Assembly (NCBI GenBank): GCA_016867675.1
Contig: VGIZ01000008.1
Location: 1 to 12,301 of the forward strand
Length of the DNA: 12,301 bases
Direction: 5' to 3'
Source: Candidatus Aenigmatarchaeota archaeon
GTDB taxonomy: Archaea; Aenigmatarchaeota; Aenigmatarchaeia; QMZP01
The notes under the pieces: generated by a model
Told to the model about the DNA's origin: nothing
Seen by the model: the letters and a program-made list of their open reading frames with translations, nothing else
Databases searched by the model: none
Position numbers and translations under genes: made by a program
Part shown: in pieces, positions 5,189-10,883 of the stretch
How positions within the stretch are numbered: the stretch's first letter is position 1
Layout: every line of letters begins with the position of its first letter

Positions 5189-5204
5189 CTTATAATATAT
5201 ATAG
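5189..5204. promoter_or_regulatory. AT-rich divergent promoter, PAC2 gene and tRNA cluster
   Basis: CTTATAATATATATAG reads as a TATA element on both strands. On minus it sits about 30-45 bp before ATG 5159, giving a short leader. On plus it would start transcription near 5220, about 80 nt before tRNA-Glu. No better TATA box lies at -26 of the tRNA at 5301. Confidence 0.45.
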
Positions 5205-5270
5205 AGAAAGATTTGATATAACTGATACGCCGCATAGGCCAAAAGCGGCAAGCGGCTCGTCAGGAAACAC

Positions 5271-5291
5271 CTGCAGGTCATAGACCTGCAG
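5271..5291 (+). repeat. Perfect inverted repeat in the tRNA leader
   Basis: CTGCAGGTC (5271-5279), a 3-nt loop and GACCTGCAG (5283-5291) form a perfect 9-bp hairpin ending 9 nt before tRNA-Glu. A second potential hairpin, GCCGC (5229-5233) with GCGGC (5245-5249), lies upstream. It could be a leader processing structure or a protein site; function unknown. Confidence 0.6.
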
Positions 5292-5300
5292 CAGTTGGTT

Positions 5301-5488
5301 GCCCCCGTAGTGTAGCGGCCAAGCACACGAGCTTCTCGCAAGCTCTTTGGGAAATGCGCCGAGAGCCAGAAGCTCTCGGGCATGCCATGAGACGGATGTC
5401 TCATGAGCAGAGCTTGAGCAGAAAGTGCTCAAGTTTCAAATGAGCTTGGAAACAGCTTGTAACCTGGGTTCAAATCCCAGCGGGGGTG
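5301..5488 (+). tRNA. tRNA-Glu (CTC), with a 115-nt intron
   Basis: Acceptor GCCCCCG (5301-5307) pairs with CGGGGGT (5481-5487), with G1-U72 wobble and discriminator G73. The D-stem is GTGT/GCAC. Anticodon stem CGAGC (5328-5332) pairs with GCTTG (5455-5459). The mature loop is TTCTCGA, giving anticodon CTC (5335-5337). The T-arm is CTGGG-TTCAAAT-CCCAG. No CCA is encoded. The spliced RNA is a complete cloverleaf, and the intron sits at the usual 37/38 site. It is the first of three tRNA genes, with a 2-nt spacer (TC) to the next. Confidence 0.93.
5339..5453 (+). other. tRNA-Glu intron with structured three-way-junction module
   Basis: Splice sites fit a canonical bulge-helix-bulge. TTCT (5333-5336) pairs with GGAA (5448-5451), with bulges C-G-C (5337-5339) and A-C-A (5452-5454). 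The inner helix is AAGCTC (5340-5345) with GAGCTT (5442-5447). Inside are three hairpins. ATGC-CCGAGAGC pairs with GCTCTCGG-GCAT (5354-5383, one bulged G). CATGAGAC pairs with GTCTCATG (5386-5405, loop GGAT). CTTGAGCA pairs with TGCTCAAG (5413-5433). Positions 5339-5429 match 5616-5706 of the Ala D-loop intron at 85 of 91 sites. An alternative closing stem is CAAGCTC (5339-5345) with GAGCTTG (5410-5416). I see no C/D, H/ACA or open reading frame. Confidence 0.9.
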
Positions 5489-5490
5489 TC

Positions 5491-5593
5491 GGACCGGTGG
5501 CTTAGTGGTAAAGCACCCGACTGATAATCGGGAGATCGAGAGAAGCCTTTAGGGAAACTTACTGGCTCTCGAATCCGATTCTCTCCCGGTCCA
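5491..5593 (+). tRNA. tRNA-Ile (GAT), with a 31-nt T-arm intron
   Basis: Acceptor GGACCGG (5491-5497) pairs with CCGGTCC (5586-5592), and A73 follows. The D-arm is GCTT-AGTGGTA-AAGC. Anticodon stem CCCGA/TCGGG encloses CTGATAA, so the anticodon is GAT. Variable loop AGATC; T-stem GAGAG (5538-5542) pairs with CTCTC (5581-5585). Between the T-stem strands are 38 nt instead of 7, explained by an intron at 5543-5573. The mature T-loop would be TCCGATT, with C instead of the near-universal U at position 55. No CCA is encoded. It is flanked by 2-nt spacers. Confidence 0.9.
5543..5573 (+). other. Noncanonical intron in tRNA-Ile T-arm (position 53/54)
   Basis: The boundaries rest on a bulge-helix-bulge. 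CGAG (5537-5540) pairs perfectly with CTCG (5568-5571), with bulges A-G-A (5541-5543) and A-A-T (5572-5574). The inner helix is AGCC (5544-5547) with GGCT (5564-5567). I see no good outer helix, so this is the relaxed form. The intron starts AAGCCTTTAGGGAAAC, resembling the AAGCTCTTTGGGAAAT start of the Glu intron. It may be a shortened relative. Confidence 0.75.
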
Positions 5594-5614
5594 TCGGGCT
5601 GGTAGATCAACGGT

Positions 5615-5715
5615 ACAAGCTCTTTAAGAAATGCGCCGAGAGTCAGAAACTCTCGGGCATGCCATGAGACGGATGTCTCATGAGCAGAGCTTGAGCAGAA
5701 AACGCTATGCGTTAA
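5615..5715 (+). other. D-loop intron of tRNA-Ala (position 20/21) carrying the shared module
   Basis: Splice sites follow from AACG (5609-5612) pairing with CGTT (5710-5713), bulges G-T-A (5613-5615) and A-A-A (5714-5716). The inner helix is CAAGC (5616-5620) with GCTATG (5704-5709), one A bulged. Positions 5616-5706 align without gaps to the Glu intron. The T5643-A5649 pair replaces C5366-G5372, keeping the hairpin. CAAGCTC (5616-5622) can instead pair with GAGCTTG (5687-5693). The CGTT strand can also pair within the intron (AACGC-TAT-GCGTT, 5701-5713). Boundaries are inferred from pairing and the mature cloverleaf. Confidence 0.85.
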
Positions 5716-5732
5716 AGATCGCTTGCCTCGCA

Positions 5733-5747
5733 TGCGCGAGCAGAGAC
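5733..5747 (+). other. Minimal 15-nt anticodon-loop intron of tRNA-Ala
   Basis: Splicing at 37/38 removes 15 nt. The helix is CTCG (5727-5730) with AGAG (5742-5745), one G-A mismatch. The inner helix is GC (5734-5735) with GC (5740-5741), loop GCGA. Because TGC occurs at both ends, the boundary could shift by up to 3 nt without changing the mature tRNA; 37/38 is chosen because it fits the bulge geometry. Confidence 0.75.
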
Positions 5748-5822
5748 TGCAAGAGGTTCGGGGTTCAAATCCCCGCCAGTCCATTTAAGCAGGAGTGCTA
5801 CAATTAGTTAAAAAGTGGGTCA

Positions 5823-6368
5823 ATGGTCTTCGACATATTCACGCTGGTTGAGGCAGTGTTTTTCATCTTGCCGGCATACGCAGCGAACGGGCTCGCGCCG
5901 TTGTTCAGGGGAAAGCATGCGATTGACGGCGGCAAGACCATCAGGAAGCAGCCTATCCTAGGCGCGGGCAAGACCTGGGAGGGCCTGATTGGCGGCATCG
6001 TTGTCGCAGGCGTCATCGGGCTGGTGGAGCAGCTGGCCTTCCCCTTCCTTCCGTGGAGCCTGTCCCCGCAGCCGCTGGTAATTGTCCCCATGACTCTGGT
6101 GCTCGGGCTCATCATAGGCGCGGGCGCCATGTTCGGCGACCTGTGCGGCGCGTTCATCAAGCGCAGGTGCGGCATTGAGAGGGGCAGGCCCGCGCCGCTG
6201 CTGGACCAGGAGGACTTCCTTGTCGGAGCGTTCGCATTCGCGTGGCTGATTGGCGGTGCGGCACTGCAGAGCGGCTGGTTCGTGCTGCTGTTCGTGCTCA
6301 CGCCGGCGCTTCATGTCGTCGCGAATGTCATCGGCTTCCTGCTGAAGGTCAAGAAAGAGCCGTGGTAA
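5823..6368 (+). CDS. carS: CDP-archaeol synthase
   Basis: The integral membrane enzyme joins CTP and unsaturated archaetidic acid to make CDP-archaeol, the activated precursor of archaeal polar lipids. The 181-residue protein has about five hydrophobic segments. The CarS (DUF46) motifs are FILPAYAANGLAPLF (residues 14-28), the cytoplasmic DGGK...GAGKTWEG (35-54), GAMFGDLCGAFIKRRCGI (101-118) and LLDQEDF (126-132). The length is usual for the family. The start ATG 5823 is preceded by GTGGGT, a weak Shine-Dalgarno. The gene is 39 nt after tRNA-Ala, with TTTAAG at 5784-5789 as a possible weak TATA box, so it may partly depend on tRNA cluster transcription. Confidence 0.93.
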   Translation: MVFDIFTLVEAVFFILPAYAANGLAPLFRGKHAIDGGKTIRKQPILGAGKTWEGLIGGIVVAGVIGLVEQLAFPFLPWSLSPQPLVIVPMTLVLGLIIGAGAMFGDLCGAFIKRRCGIERGRPAPLLDQEDFLVGAFAFAWLIGGAALQSGWFVLLFVLTPALHVVANVIGFLLKVKKEPW

Positions 6369-7775: not shown

Positions 7776-7866
7776 CATGTGTTTGATGACACATGGCTTG
7801 CAGCTTGGCTGCAAGAACTTGCAAGCCATGCTTGCAAGATGTCTGTCAAAACGACCTCATTTTGAC
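7776..7866. repeat. Intergenic hairpin array downstream of adk (copy 2)
   Basis: Four successive hairpins: CATGTGT/ACACATG (7776-7795), CTTGCAGC/GCTGCAAG (7797-7815), TTGCAAG/CTTGCAA (7819-7837) and GTCAAAA/TTTTGAC (7845-7866, over the adk stop). An alternative 11-bp stem, CATGGCTTGCA (7792-7802) with TGCAAGCCATG (7820-7830), excludes the middle two. It is probably a transcript 3' end or regulatory structure. Confidence 0.5.
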
Positions 7867-8600: not shown

Positions 8601-10883
8601 TTAAGTTTGCTTGGCCTTCGCCGCCCCGAACTGCGCGAGCAGGGCTTCCAGCTGGATGTCGTCGGAGCCGCCCTGGTTGAGGCGGAACTCAAACTCGCCC
8701 GTCTTCTCCAGCAGGCGGGCGCGCCCGCTTTCGCTGATGTCAAGGCTGAAAATCTGCTTATGGATTTCCCTTATGATGTCCTCGCCGCTCAGCCCCTGCC
8801 TGAACAGCATGTCAAGGAGAAGCTTCCGCGCCTCGGCAAACTTGCCTCCGACAGCGAGGTTGAGCATCTTCGCAACGTCGCCAGGTTTTGCCTGCGAGAC
8901 GACCTCATAGACGACCTCGCGCGTTATCTTTCCCATGGCCGCGGCTGTCTGCAGGATGTTCGTCGCCTTCCTCAGGTCGCCCTCCGACACCTCGTGGATG
9001 GCTTCCATGGCGTCGGCGTCGGCGTGAAGCTTCTCGCCGCTGACTATCCTGTCCAGATACTCGCTCACATGCTCCTTGGAGAAGCCGTGGAACCTGAAGA
9101 CCGCGCAGCGGCTCTGTATGGGCTCTATTATCCTGCCGGAAAAGTTGACCGAAAAAATAAATCTGCACACGCTGGAGAACTTCTCGATTGTGCGCCTGAG
9201 CGCCTGCTGCGCCTCGGGCGTCAGGGCGTCAGCCTCGTCAAGGAATACTATCTTGAAGTCGGCTCCGAGCGGCTTCATCATGGCGTAGTCCTTTATCCTG
9301 CCGCGCACCACATCGATGCCCCGTTCGTCGCTGTTATGCAACAGAATAGGTGTGGTGCCTCCCCAGAACATTTCTGTGCCCGGAACTGAAACATCATAGA
9401 CATAGTCTGAATACTCTTCTTTTTGTATACCTGTTATTTTGACAACAGAAAGTGATGATTCTATGAATCTGAGTATATTAGCCTTTATCTTATCAGTCGT
9501 TTCAAAACTATTGAGCAACGCCTTGGCCGCTTGCTTGGATATCCTTGGGCATTTCTTCGAATACATCTGATGTCTGAGGGCATATCGCGGGTTGTTTTTG
9601 CTTATTCTTTTTGTCTTTATCATTTCTATAATCGGTTCAACTGGGACAAAATCTGTTTTGAGCCAAGAGAAAGATGGCATTTTCCATATTATCCTAGCTT
9701 CTGTCCCGAACAGGGATGTATCAAGGCCTGATATTCTTCCCAGCCATGCTATATCTATCAGGTTATCAAGAGAGCGTGAAGAATACCTGACATAGCTGCC
9801 CCACTCGCCGCAGGCATCTCCCATGTATCCCTTCAGGAACGACTCCTTGTTGTTGAAGTCGGAGCTGAACATGAAATCCGGGACCCTCTTTGTGGTGGCG
9901 TCTCTTAACCCCATGCCGCCATAGAAGTTGTTATAAAAGAATCTGGAGAATTGTGTATTGCAGGTCCTCACTTGAATGGATGTCATCCTGCTTCTGTCAA
10001 ATCCGGAAGATGCCTTATTTATAGAGTACTGGAGGCCGAATTTATCTTCAAGTATACCCCCTATCCGCTCAGCGACCTCCCTTTCCTCGTGGGATACCGT
10101 GAAAATAACAACACCACTTGTTCCGCTCGACCTTATGCTTGTACAGCCTTCTGCCAAATACATGCCCATAAGCCAGGAAATATCACTATTTAATTCCGTG
10201 TTTTTTATGCTGGTCTTTATCTTGGGGTTTCTGAATGTGCTGTTATGCCATACAACCATGGGCTTTTCAAGCTGCTCAAATTCAAGAACCGGGGGCTTCC
10301 CTGCAATGTCGTCTCTGAATGTTATCAACAAATCGCCTTTCCTCAGATTTCCCGCTTCCTTTGAGGTGAGCTTGCCTTCTCTGTCTACGACTATGACGGA
10401 ATGATTCAGGCTTGTCCGTATTGAACCGCCTTCATATTTTATATTGACCACGTTCTTGACTCTGTGCCTGGATATAAGGCTTACTGGCTTGAATTTTACC
10501 CTATAGTTTTCATCAAGCGAAAGGACTTCCAAGTCATCTGCTTTCACGTATTTTTCGTTCCCCCTAAAGTAGCCATTTGCAAGCCTCCCAAAATTAGTCC
10601 TGGATATTCTCCCGTTTTTTCTTACAAGGATAGGAGTGTCGGGGGTTACGCTCGCGTTGAACTCGGAAAAGTTCTCGCGCCAGTGGCTGCCGAAGAGGTC
10701 GCGGGCGAGGCACACCGCCATGGTGGTCTTTCCCACGCCTGCAGGACCTGCAAAAAGCATGTTCGGTATGTTGCCTGACTTCGTCCATGCTTTCAGCCTT
10801 TCGGTGACGTGCTTCTGGTTTATTACTTCGCTGAGCGACTTGGGCCTGTACTTCTCTGTCCAGACCTGCGCATCCCCTGCCAT
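8601..10883 (-). CDS. rfcS: Replication factor C small subunit, intein-containing precursor
   Basis: The clamp loader opens and loads the PCNA ring with ATP during DNA replication. The 760-residue precursor splits into a 77-residue N-extein (VWTEKYRPKSLSEVINQ; Walker A GPAGVGKTT at 46-54), a 440-residue intein (78-517) and a 243-residue C-extein. The C-extein holds SDERGIDVVRGRIK, Walker B VFLDEADAL, sensor-1 region FIFSVNFSGRIIEPIQSRC with the SRC arginine finger, and GDLRKATNILQ. The spliced protein is 320 residues, normal for RfcS. ATG 10883 lies about 24 bp from the TATA box, so the transcript is probably leaderless. The large subunit is not in the window. Confidence 0.96.
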   Translation of the reverse strand: MAGDAQVWTEKYRPKSLSEVINQKHVTERLKAWTKSGNIPNMLFAGPAGVGKTTMAVCLARDLFGSHWRENFSEFNASVTPDTPILVRKNGRISRTNFGRLANGYFRGNEKYVKADDLEVLSLDENYRVKFKPVSLISRHRVKNVVNIKYEGGSIRTSLNHSVIVVDREGKLTSKEAGNLRKGDLLITFRDDIAGKPPVLEFEQLEKPMVVWHNSTFRNPKIKTSIKNTELNSDISWLMGMYLAEGCTSIRSSGTSGVVIFTVSHEEREVAERIGGILEDKFGLQYSINKASSGFDRSRMTSIQVRTCNTQFSRFFYNNFYGGMGLRDATTKRVPDFMFSSDFNNKESFLKGYMGDACGEWGSYVRYSSRSLDNLIDIAWLGRISGLDTSLFGTEARIIWKMPSFSWLKTDFVPVEPIIEMIKTKRISKNNPRYALRHQMYSKKCPRISKQAAKALLNSFETTDKIKANILRFIESSLSVVKITGIQKEEYSDYVYDVSVPGTEMFWGGTTPILLHNSDERGIDVVRGRIKDYAMMKPLGADFKIVFLDEADALTPEAQQALRRTIEKFSSVCRFIFSVNFSGRIIEPIQSRCAVFRFHGFSKEHVSEYLDRIVSGEKLHADADAMEAIHEVSEGDLRKATNILQTAAAMGKITREVVYEVVSQAKPGDVAKMLNLAVGGKFAEARKLLLDMLFRQGLSGEDIIREIHKQIFSLDISESGRARLLEKTGEFEFRLNQGGSDDIQLEALLAQFGAAKAKQT
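9333..10652 (-). mobile_element. RFC intein with LAGLIDADG homing endonuclease
   Basis: A 440-residue in-frame insertion between Ala77 and the Ser of SDERG. Intein block A is SVTPDTPILV (Ser1 as first nucleophile). A block-B-like SLNH lies at 81-84. Two dodecapeptides, LMGMYLAEG (161-169) and FLKGYMGDA (272-280), keep the acidic residues E168 and D279, so the endonuclease may be active. Block F is YVYDVSVPG (417-425), block G is PILLHN (435-440) with H439-N440, and +1 Ser follows. Its DNA is AT-richer than the exteins. All splicing residues look present, so self-excision is expected. Confidence 0.95.

Follow-up and report, generated by a model that had tools for sequence, protein, structure and literature searches.

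A palindromic double-hairpin element in the tRNA introns of an Aenigmatarchaeota genome, a predicted non-autonomous mobile DNA

In bacteria, REPINs are described as two inverted imperfect palindromes that form one dispersed unit, with compensatory changes and a putative trans-acting transposase (PMC3116915), and a GTAG or CGTC tag at one end is given as a criterion for REP and REPIN sequences (PMC3733652). Rickettsia palindromic elements are described as palindromic repeats in frame within protein genes (PMC10969869, PMC3733652), of about 150 bp and with a conserved peptide (PMC10969869). In fungal mitochondria, double-hairpin elements made of two adjoining stem-loops are considered mobile (PMC5910586, PMC4618339). 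As for archaea, tRNA intron transposition is described in Thermoproteales, where distinct tRNAs share highly similar introns, both at the canonical position and elsewhere (PMC4090602). Among titles and abstract beginnings in the literature on palindromic elements, REPINs, tRNA introns and DPANN or archaeal repeats, no published report of an archaeal element of such kind was found.

The element analysed here shares with REPINs a plan in which a pair of imperfect palindromes, inverted relative to each other, forms the dispersed unit. Unlike REPINs, which are mainly extragenic, it is also present in genes and tRNA introns, it has another foot and no consistent Y1 transposase, and it is archaeal. 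Like Rickettsia palindromic elements it is inserted in frame in proteins (ABCE1 and Bud32), but one copy breaks the frame, and it differs from them in its length of about 54 nt, against about 150 bp with a conserved peptide, and in its presence in tRNA introns. In plan, the two-hairpin architecture resembles that of the fungal mitochondrial elements, reportedly the subject of Paquin et al. 2000, which belong to organelle genomes. In Thermoproteales the described unit is the intron, whereas what recurs here is smaller than an intron, an element within introns that is also found outside tRNA genes. In its behaviour the element resembles REPINs and Rickettsia palindromic elements, but it is assigned to neither group.

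The window, the whole stretch of 12,301 nucleotides analysed from a Candidatus Aenigmatarchaeota archaeon, contains two tRNA introns that share a 91-nt module. This module is probably a splicing-endonuclease tRNA intron copied between neighbouring tRNA genes, with a non-autonomous mobile DNA element of about 54 nt carried in its loop. The features are as follows (R1 and R2 are covariance models described below).

5301..5338, plus strand: tRNA-Glu(CTC) 5' exon (in-silico splicing, ARAGORN)
5339..5453, plus strand: tRNA-Glu intron, site 37/38, canonical bulge-helix-bulge (splicing in silico, junction pairing)
5355..5409, plus strand: double-hairpin element, copy 1, with unit 1 at 5355-5382 and unit 2 at 5383-5409 (R1 52.9 bits, R2 60.3 bits; in both training sets)
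5410..5416, plus strand: GAGCTTG, potential partner of CAAGCTC at 5339-5345, giving an intron hairpin with the element in its loop (sequence, fold)
5454..5488, plus strand: tRNA-Glu 3' exon (in-silico splicing)
5491..5593, plus strand: tRNA-Ile(GAT) with a T-loop insert of about 30 nt (cut inexact) and no double-hairpin element (Rfam tRNA 56.5 bits; ARAGORN, 31 different trial excisions)
5596..5614, plus strand: tRNA-Ala(CGC) first exon (in-silico splicing)
5615..5715, plus strand: first intron of tRNA-Ala, in the D-loop, with a relaxed splice motif and an ambiguity of one A at the boundary (splicing in silico, junction pairing)
5632..5686, plus strand: double-hairpin element, copy 2, with unit 1 at 5632-5659 and unit 2 at 5660-5686 (R1 52.3 bits, R2 58.3 bits; in both training sets)
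5716..5732, plus strand: tRNA-Ala second exon (in-silico splicing)
5733..5747, plus strand: tRNA-Ala intron 2, 15 nt, site 37/38 (in-silico splicing)
5748..5783, plus strand: tRNA-Ala third exon (in-silico splicing)

A repeat search of the window returned positions 5339-5429 and 5616-5706 as an ungapped 91-nt pair with six mismatches and a spacing of 277, in agreement with the 85 of 91 identical positions of the preliminary description, and the double change from C5366-G5372 to T5643-A5649 that it reported is present. Chance matches to the 37-nt core with up to three mismatches averaged 0.00 over 200 shuffles. The module folds at -47.4 kcal/mol (z -5.9), a value reached in 0 of 200 shuffles. 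The assignment of the introns to tRNA-Glu(CTC) and tRNA-Ala(CGC) holds as well: ARAGORN calls the exons joined in silico tRNA-Glu(ctc) and tRNA-Ala(cgc). It called no tRNA in the unspliced window, where the sole Rfam match at gathering score is tRNA-Ile.

In terms of splicing, the junctions of the tRNA-Glu intron fit a complete bulge-helix-bulge, with 5/5, 4/4 and 6/6 pairs around the bulges CGC and ACA, and those of the D-loop intron of tRNA-Ala a relaxed one (4/4, 4/4, then 2/3 pairs), and both are predicted from these motifs to be archaeal splicing-endonuclease introns. The 15-nt intron of tRNA-Ala and the T-loop insert of tRNA-Ile, located between tRNA-Glu and tRNA-Ala, are additional to what had been described. 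The two large introns are alike from the 5' splice site onwards (in tRNA-Ala, from one base inside it) and their 3' ends differ, a pattern to be expected if an intron was copied and then fitted to another tRNA. Genes of the window are of archaeal type, e.g. CDP-archaeol synthase, archaeal-type uS2 and eL19. Elsewhere in the window, two adjoining perfect hairpins of 8-9 bp lie next to an adenylate kinase ORF (7797-7838) and are absent among the R2 matches, and a 760-residue ORF on the minus strand (8601-10883) resembles, by eye, the small subunit of replication factor C carrying a large insert of intein-like appearance.

The element is about 54 nt long and is built from two hairpins arranged head to head, each with a bulge that usually measures one or two bases: TGC-n-[8-9 bp]-GCA and, immediately after it, TGC-[8-9 bp]-n-GCA. 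Since the two inverted units abut, it is near-identical to its own reverse complement. This near-perfect palindromy is kept by double changes. In alignment A3 (89 matches from 46 sources, often both strands of one place) double changes are found at 22 of 22 pairs, and 97.6% of 1890 cells are paired compared to 70.2% in shuffled alignments; this covariation of stem pairs leans on an alignment fitted to the same pairs, among which the feet in their present form were not included. An earlier MAFFT alignment (A1), with misplaced loops, was discarded.

The feet were evaluated on 53 parsed elements, positioned by sequence with pairing ignored. The unit-2 foot has 25 double-changed cells against 9.8 expected, a count reached in 0 of 2000 shuffles, and the unit-1 foot, with 2 such cells matched by 130 of 2000 shuffles, is too uniform to judge. 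The inner trinucleotides GCA/TGC show weak covariation, with 6 cells compared to 1.8 in shuffles and the count reached in 5 of 2000 of them, and with signal only in the window's own genome. A foot linking both ends, as in a three-way junction, has 0 double-changed cells in the same 53 elements. Because this foot, part of model R1, was without covariation, R2 was built as two hairpins. Of the three-way junction previously predicted, both arms are real, with arm 2 owning a TGC/GCA foot; the enclosing CAAGCTC/GAGCTTG stem is invariant between the two copies, so covariation is silent on it, and in tRNA-Glu AAGCTC has an alternative partner in the splice-site helix.

The element is dispersed in its own genome (G000), whose assembly is 64% complete. 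A search with the whole module returned 11 matches to E 10, of which two are the window copies and the only near-full-length ones; the other nine span 16 to 34 bases and, read by eye, show the same plan at unrelated places. The sequence GGCATGCC was tried as a lone marker and occurs at 38 sites compared to 5 in a reversed control, yet, read by eye, hairpins are present at no more than nine or ten of these sites, and for this reason a covariance model took its place. R1, from nine members of this genome only, gives 48 matches there to E 10, with rough E-values: C5:5024, in a long ORF (E 2.8e-5), and C10:10775 (E 0.048) look like chance by eye, and both are absent from the R2 matches. R2 gives 66 matches to E 1, at 37 distinct places with E<=0.01 and 33 with E<=1e-4, from 150 of 274 candidates scored and with training members matching by construction. 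Two further places lie outside these counts, C6:8828 (R1) and one in C2 near a tRNA at 10,099 (by eye). Many R2 places score on both strands.

The preliminary description recognised no known RNA family, and in agreement with it no family of Rfam 15 matches the element at gathering score. Matches touching the elements within 5200-5850, searched to E 10, are far under gathering scores, and 20 loci of other bearing genomes contain two tRNAs as the only matches. A group I intron or small ribozyme is without Rfam support. In a phage collection, short matches were found in 28 records and, among the matches listed (20), all fall on tRNA exon parts of the query. No target duplication is evident at the sites read. 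Loci L063 and L074 present four-hairpin arrays, with a like order in the tRNA-Arg intron and at C22 and with stem changes on both sides.

tRNA introns account for 6 of the 33 places: Glu, Ala, Thr(TGT) in the D-loop, Arg(TCG) and Asp(GTC) in the T-loop, and Leu(CAA). ARAGORN accepts Thr, Arg and Asp after one or more of several trial cuts (many for Asp), and Leu was assigned by eye, ARAGORN not recognising it with one intron removed. A copy in the T-loop of a tRNA-Gly was also seen by eye (15 bits). The tRNA-Thr(TGT) at L075 100-390 apparently has three introns. Outside tRNA genes, nine copies occur in one shared gene leader, some of them before uS5, Rrp4, uS19 and L37ae, one copy lies 30 nt upstream of uL24, and others are in intergenic DNA. 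The nine leader copies could have a regulatory role.

Protein genes carry the element as well. In ABCE1 it forms an 18-residue in-frame insert, absent from all 28 other sequences that cover the site (30 loci fetched out of 92 genomes with a match, one without coverage of the site). The 27-residue insert of Bud32 holds the element and exceeds it in length, and is absent in 21 of 21 aligned family members (22 others matched, one unaligned). The same Bud32 (L211, G000:C34:4460-5257) has another insert, of about 30 residues, after HGDFTTSNMILK, where a few relatives have shorter inserts. The element is also found in a 135-residue ORF with no Pfam match. Insertion is not always in frame: the 53-nt copy at C21 disrupts the reading frame of a gene with a CxxCxxCC domain, for which the scores are 33.2 bits for the part upstream of the copy, 38.5 for the reading including it and 44.8 for the joined flanks.

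Empty counterparts are also seen within this genome. In a second tRNA-intron family, CAACCCTTTTC...AAAAAGCGTTGACGGAAAAAC, the element is absent in putative tRNA-Pro and tRNA-Gln introns and present in tRNA-Leu (by eye), and two intergenic copies of this family carry it. The gene leader around GTCCGTTGACAAG...AAGGCGAAA.ATATG has the element at some loci and lacks it at L042 and L112. Loci of the second intron family are L106, L113, L112, L101 near 1400 and L184 near 1501; the family extends beyond tRNA genes, and at C13 its flanks are an 18-nt near-repeat, GGGTTCRRGCTGTTCTAG. A repeated promoter and 5' leader around GTCCGTTGACAAGAGCAAGGCGAAANGTATG precedes several genes, many for translation, with the element present or absent; leader examples in this genome are L042 and L112 (minus strand) and L070 near 1501.

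Across 156 genomes of the phylum, R2 finds the element at E<=1e-4 in 24, namely G000 and 23 others from families f7, f20, f21, f22 and f28 of the same class, with 36 candidates scored per genome and 15 of the 24 having contributed no sequence to R2. None of the 23 other genomes of its own family (f1) has a match at this threshold. R1 gave weak single matches in 8 of 40 relatives (E 0.0015-0.085) and, among the 156 genomes, 11 at E<=1e-3 including G000, that of G115 being weak and within an ORF. The nearest sequence to the element-carrying ABCE1 of G000 is from an f1 genome (64%), so misbinning is an unlikely explanation of the G000 copies. The contrast with its family mates may stem from gain by horizontal transfer or from losses in other lineages. 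Near-identical copies with unrelated outer flanks are found in G118 (4 aligned) and in G102 (3 aligned), and there the repeated unit is somewhat longer than the element. The earlier suggestion that the module is mobile is supported, on sequence grounds, by a core at 33 places of its own genome, in 23 other genomes and with empty counterparts.

The preliminary description also suggested selection on RNA structure and a functional RNA that might outlast splicing. A structured regulatory or functional RNA, either a leader motif or intron-derived, that was copied into several genes and is maintained by selection for RNA pairing would account for the strong covariation and for the leader copies shortly upstream of uS5, uS19, L37ae, Rrp4 and uL24. 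Base pairs, sites and strands speak against it. Among 414 cells of the 19 elements with known transcribed strand, 382 are Watson-Crick, 3 G-U, 10 A-C (an upper bound inflated by the parse, some arising from bulge register) and 19 other, 13 of the latter from the badly parsed rows C54:3700 and C60:4663. Stems of the 53 elements contain 11 G-U among 841 standard pairs, compared to 15.8% in column shuffles of the first hairpin. This rarity favours a palindrome kept at the DNA level over a selected RNA fold, and suggests that the arms are matched as DNA, via hairpin recognition or arm-to-arm copying. Together with the copies inside protein genes and intergenic DNA and the scores on both strands, it leaves the RNA claim unsupported, and we regard such an RNA as rather unlikely.

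That the element is a true REP/REPIN moved by a RAYT/Y1 tyrosine transposase is quite improbable, even though the inverted doublet of imperfect palindromes, the compensatory changes and the dispersal are as described for REPINs (PMC3116915). The foot is TGC/GCA with covarying variants, and a GTAG tag is not general, being readable on one strand only where the bulge is TA. The Y1 domain (Y1_Tnp, PF01797) is present in 3 of 10 bearing genomes tested and in 1 of 6 others, several assemblies, including G000, being incomplete; the 7 bearing genomes without it include G106 and G104 (90% completeness), and none was found in the 64% complete assembly of G000. Around Y1_Tnp matches, eight loci had no R1 match to E 1.

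Local gene conversion or duplication between the adjacent tRNA genes fits two copies 277 nt apart, 93% alike and unique in their near-full length, but as the whole account it is refuted, and very improbable, by a 54-nt core that recurs on other contigs and in other genomes. It can account for no more than the CAAGCTC...GAGCTTG shell and the pair's recent likeness, and for these it stays as one part of our preferred explanation.

The preferred reading is thus an intron copied between tRNA genes and loaded with an element that we predict to be a REPIN- or RPE-like non-autonomous mobile DNA; what is directly observed is its anatomy, its scattering over its own genome and class, matching sites that lack it, and a near-perfect palindrome maintained through double changes. 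By likeness to REPINs, the element would move as folded single-stranded DNA, driven by a trans-acting enzyme as proposed for them. Its perfect stems could result from copying of one arm from the other, or from a requirement for hairpin recognition. Copies would survive where the harm is small: inside introns that are spliced out, in leaders, in spacers, and within protein loops where the frame is kept. A wider proposal, which we consider unlikely, is a class-wide archaeal mobile element with its own spreading route without Y1 transposase, which seeds or enlarges tRNA introns as a safe harbour and is removable from, or skipped in, mRNA. If mRNA removal or skipping were true, the frame-breaking copy at C21 would be silent; BHB-like mRNA splicing and ribosome bypassing would be candidate routes for it.

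Lastly, since sites with and without the element, numerous copies and a model for searching are available, its mobility and the enzyme behind it can be tested in small archaeal genomes. For archaea, the element would be the equivalent of REPINs, Rickettsia palindromic elements and the double-hairpin elements of mitochondria, and it would connect mobile DNA with the question of where archaeal tRNA introns come from and how they enlarge and move.
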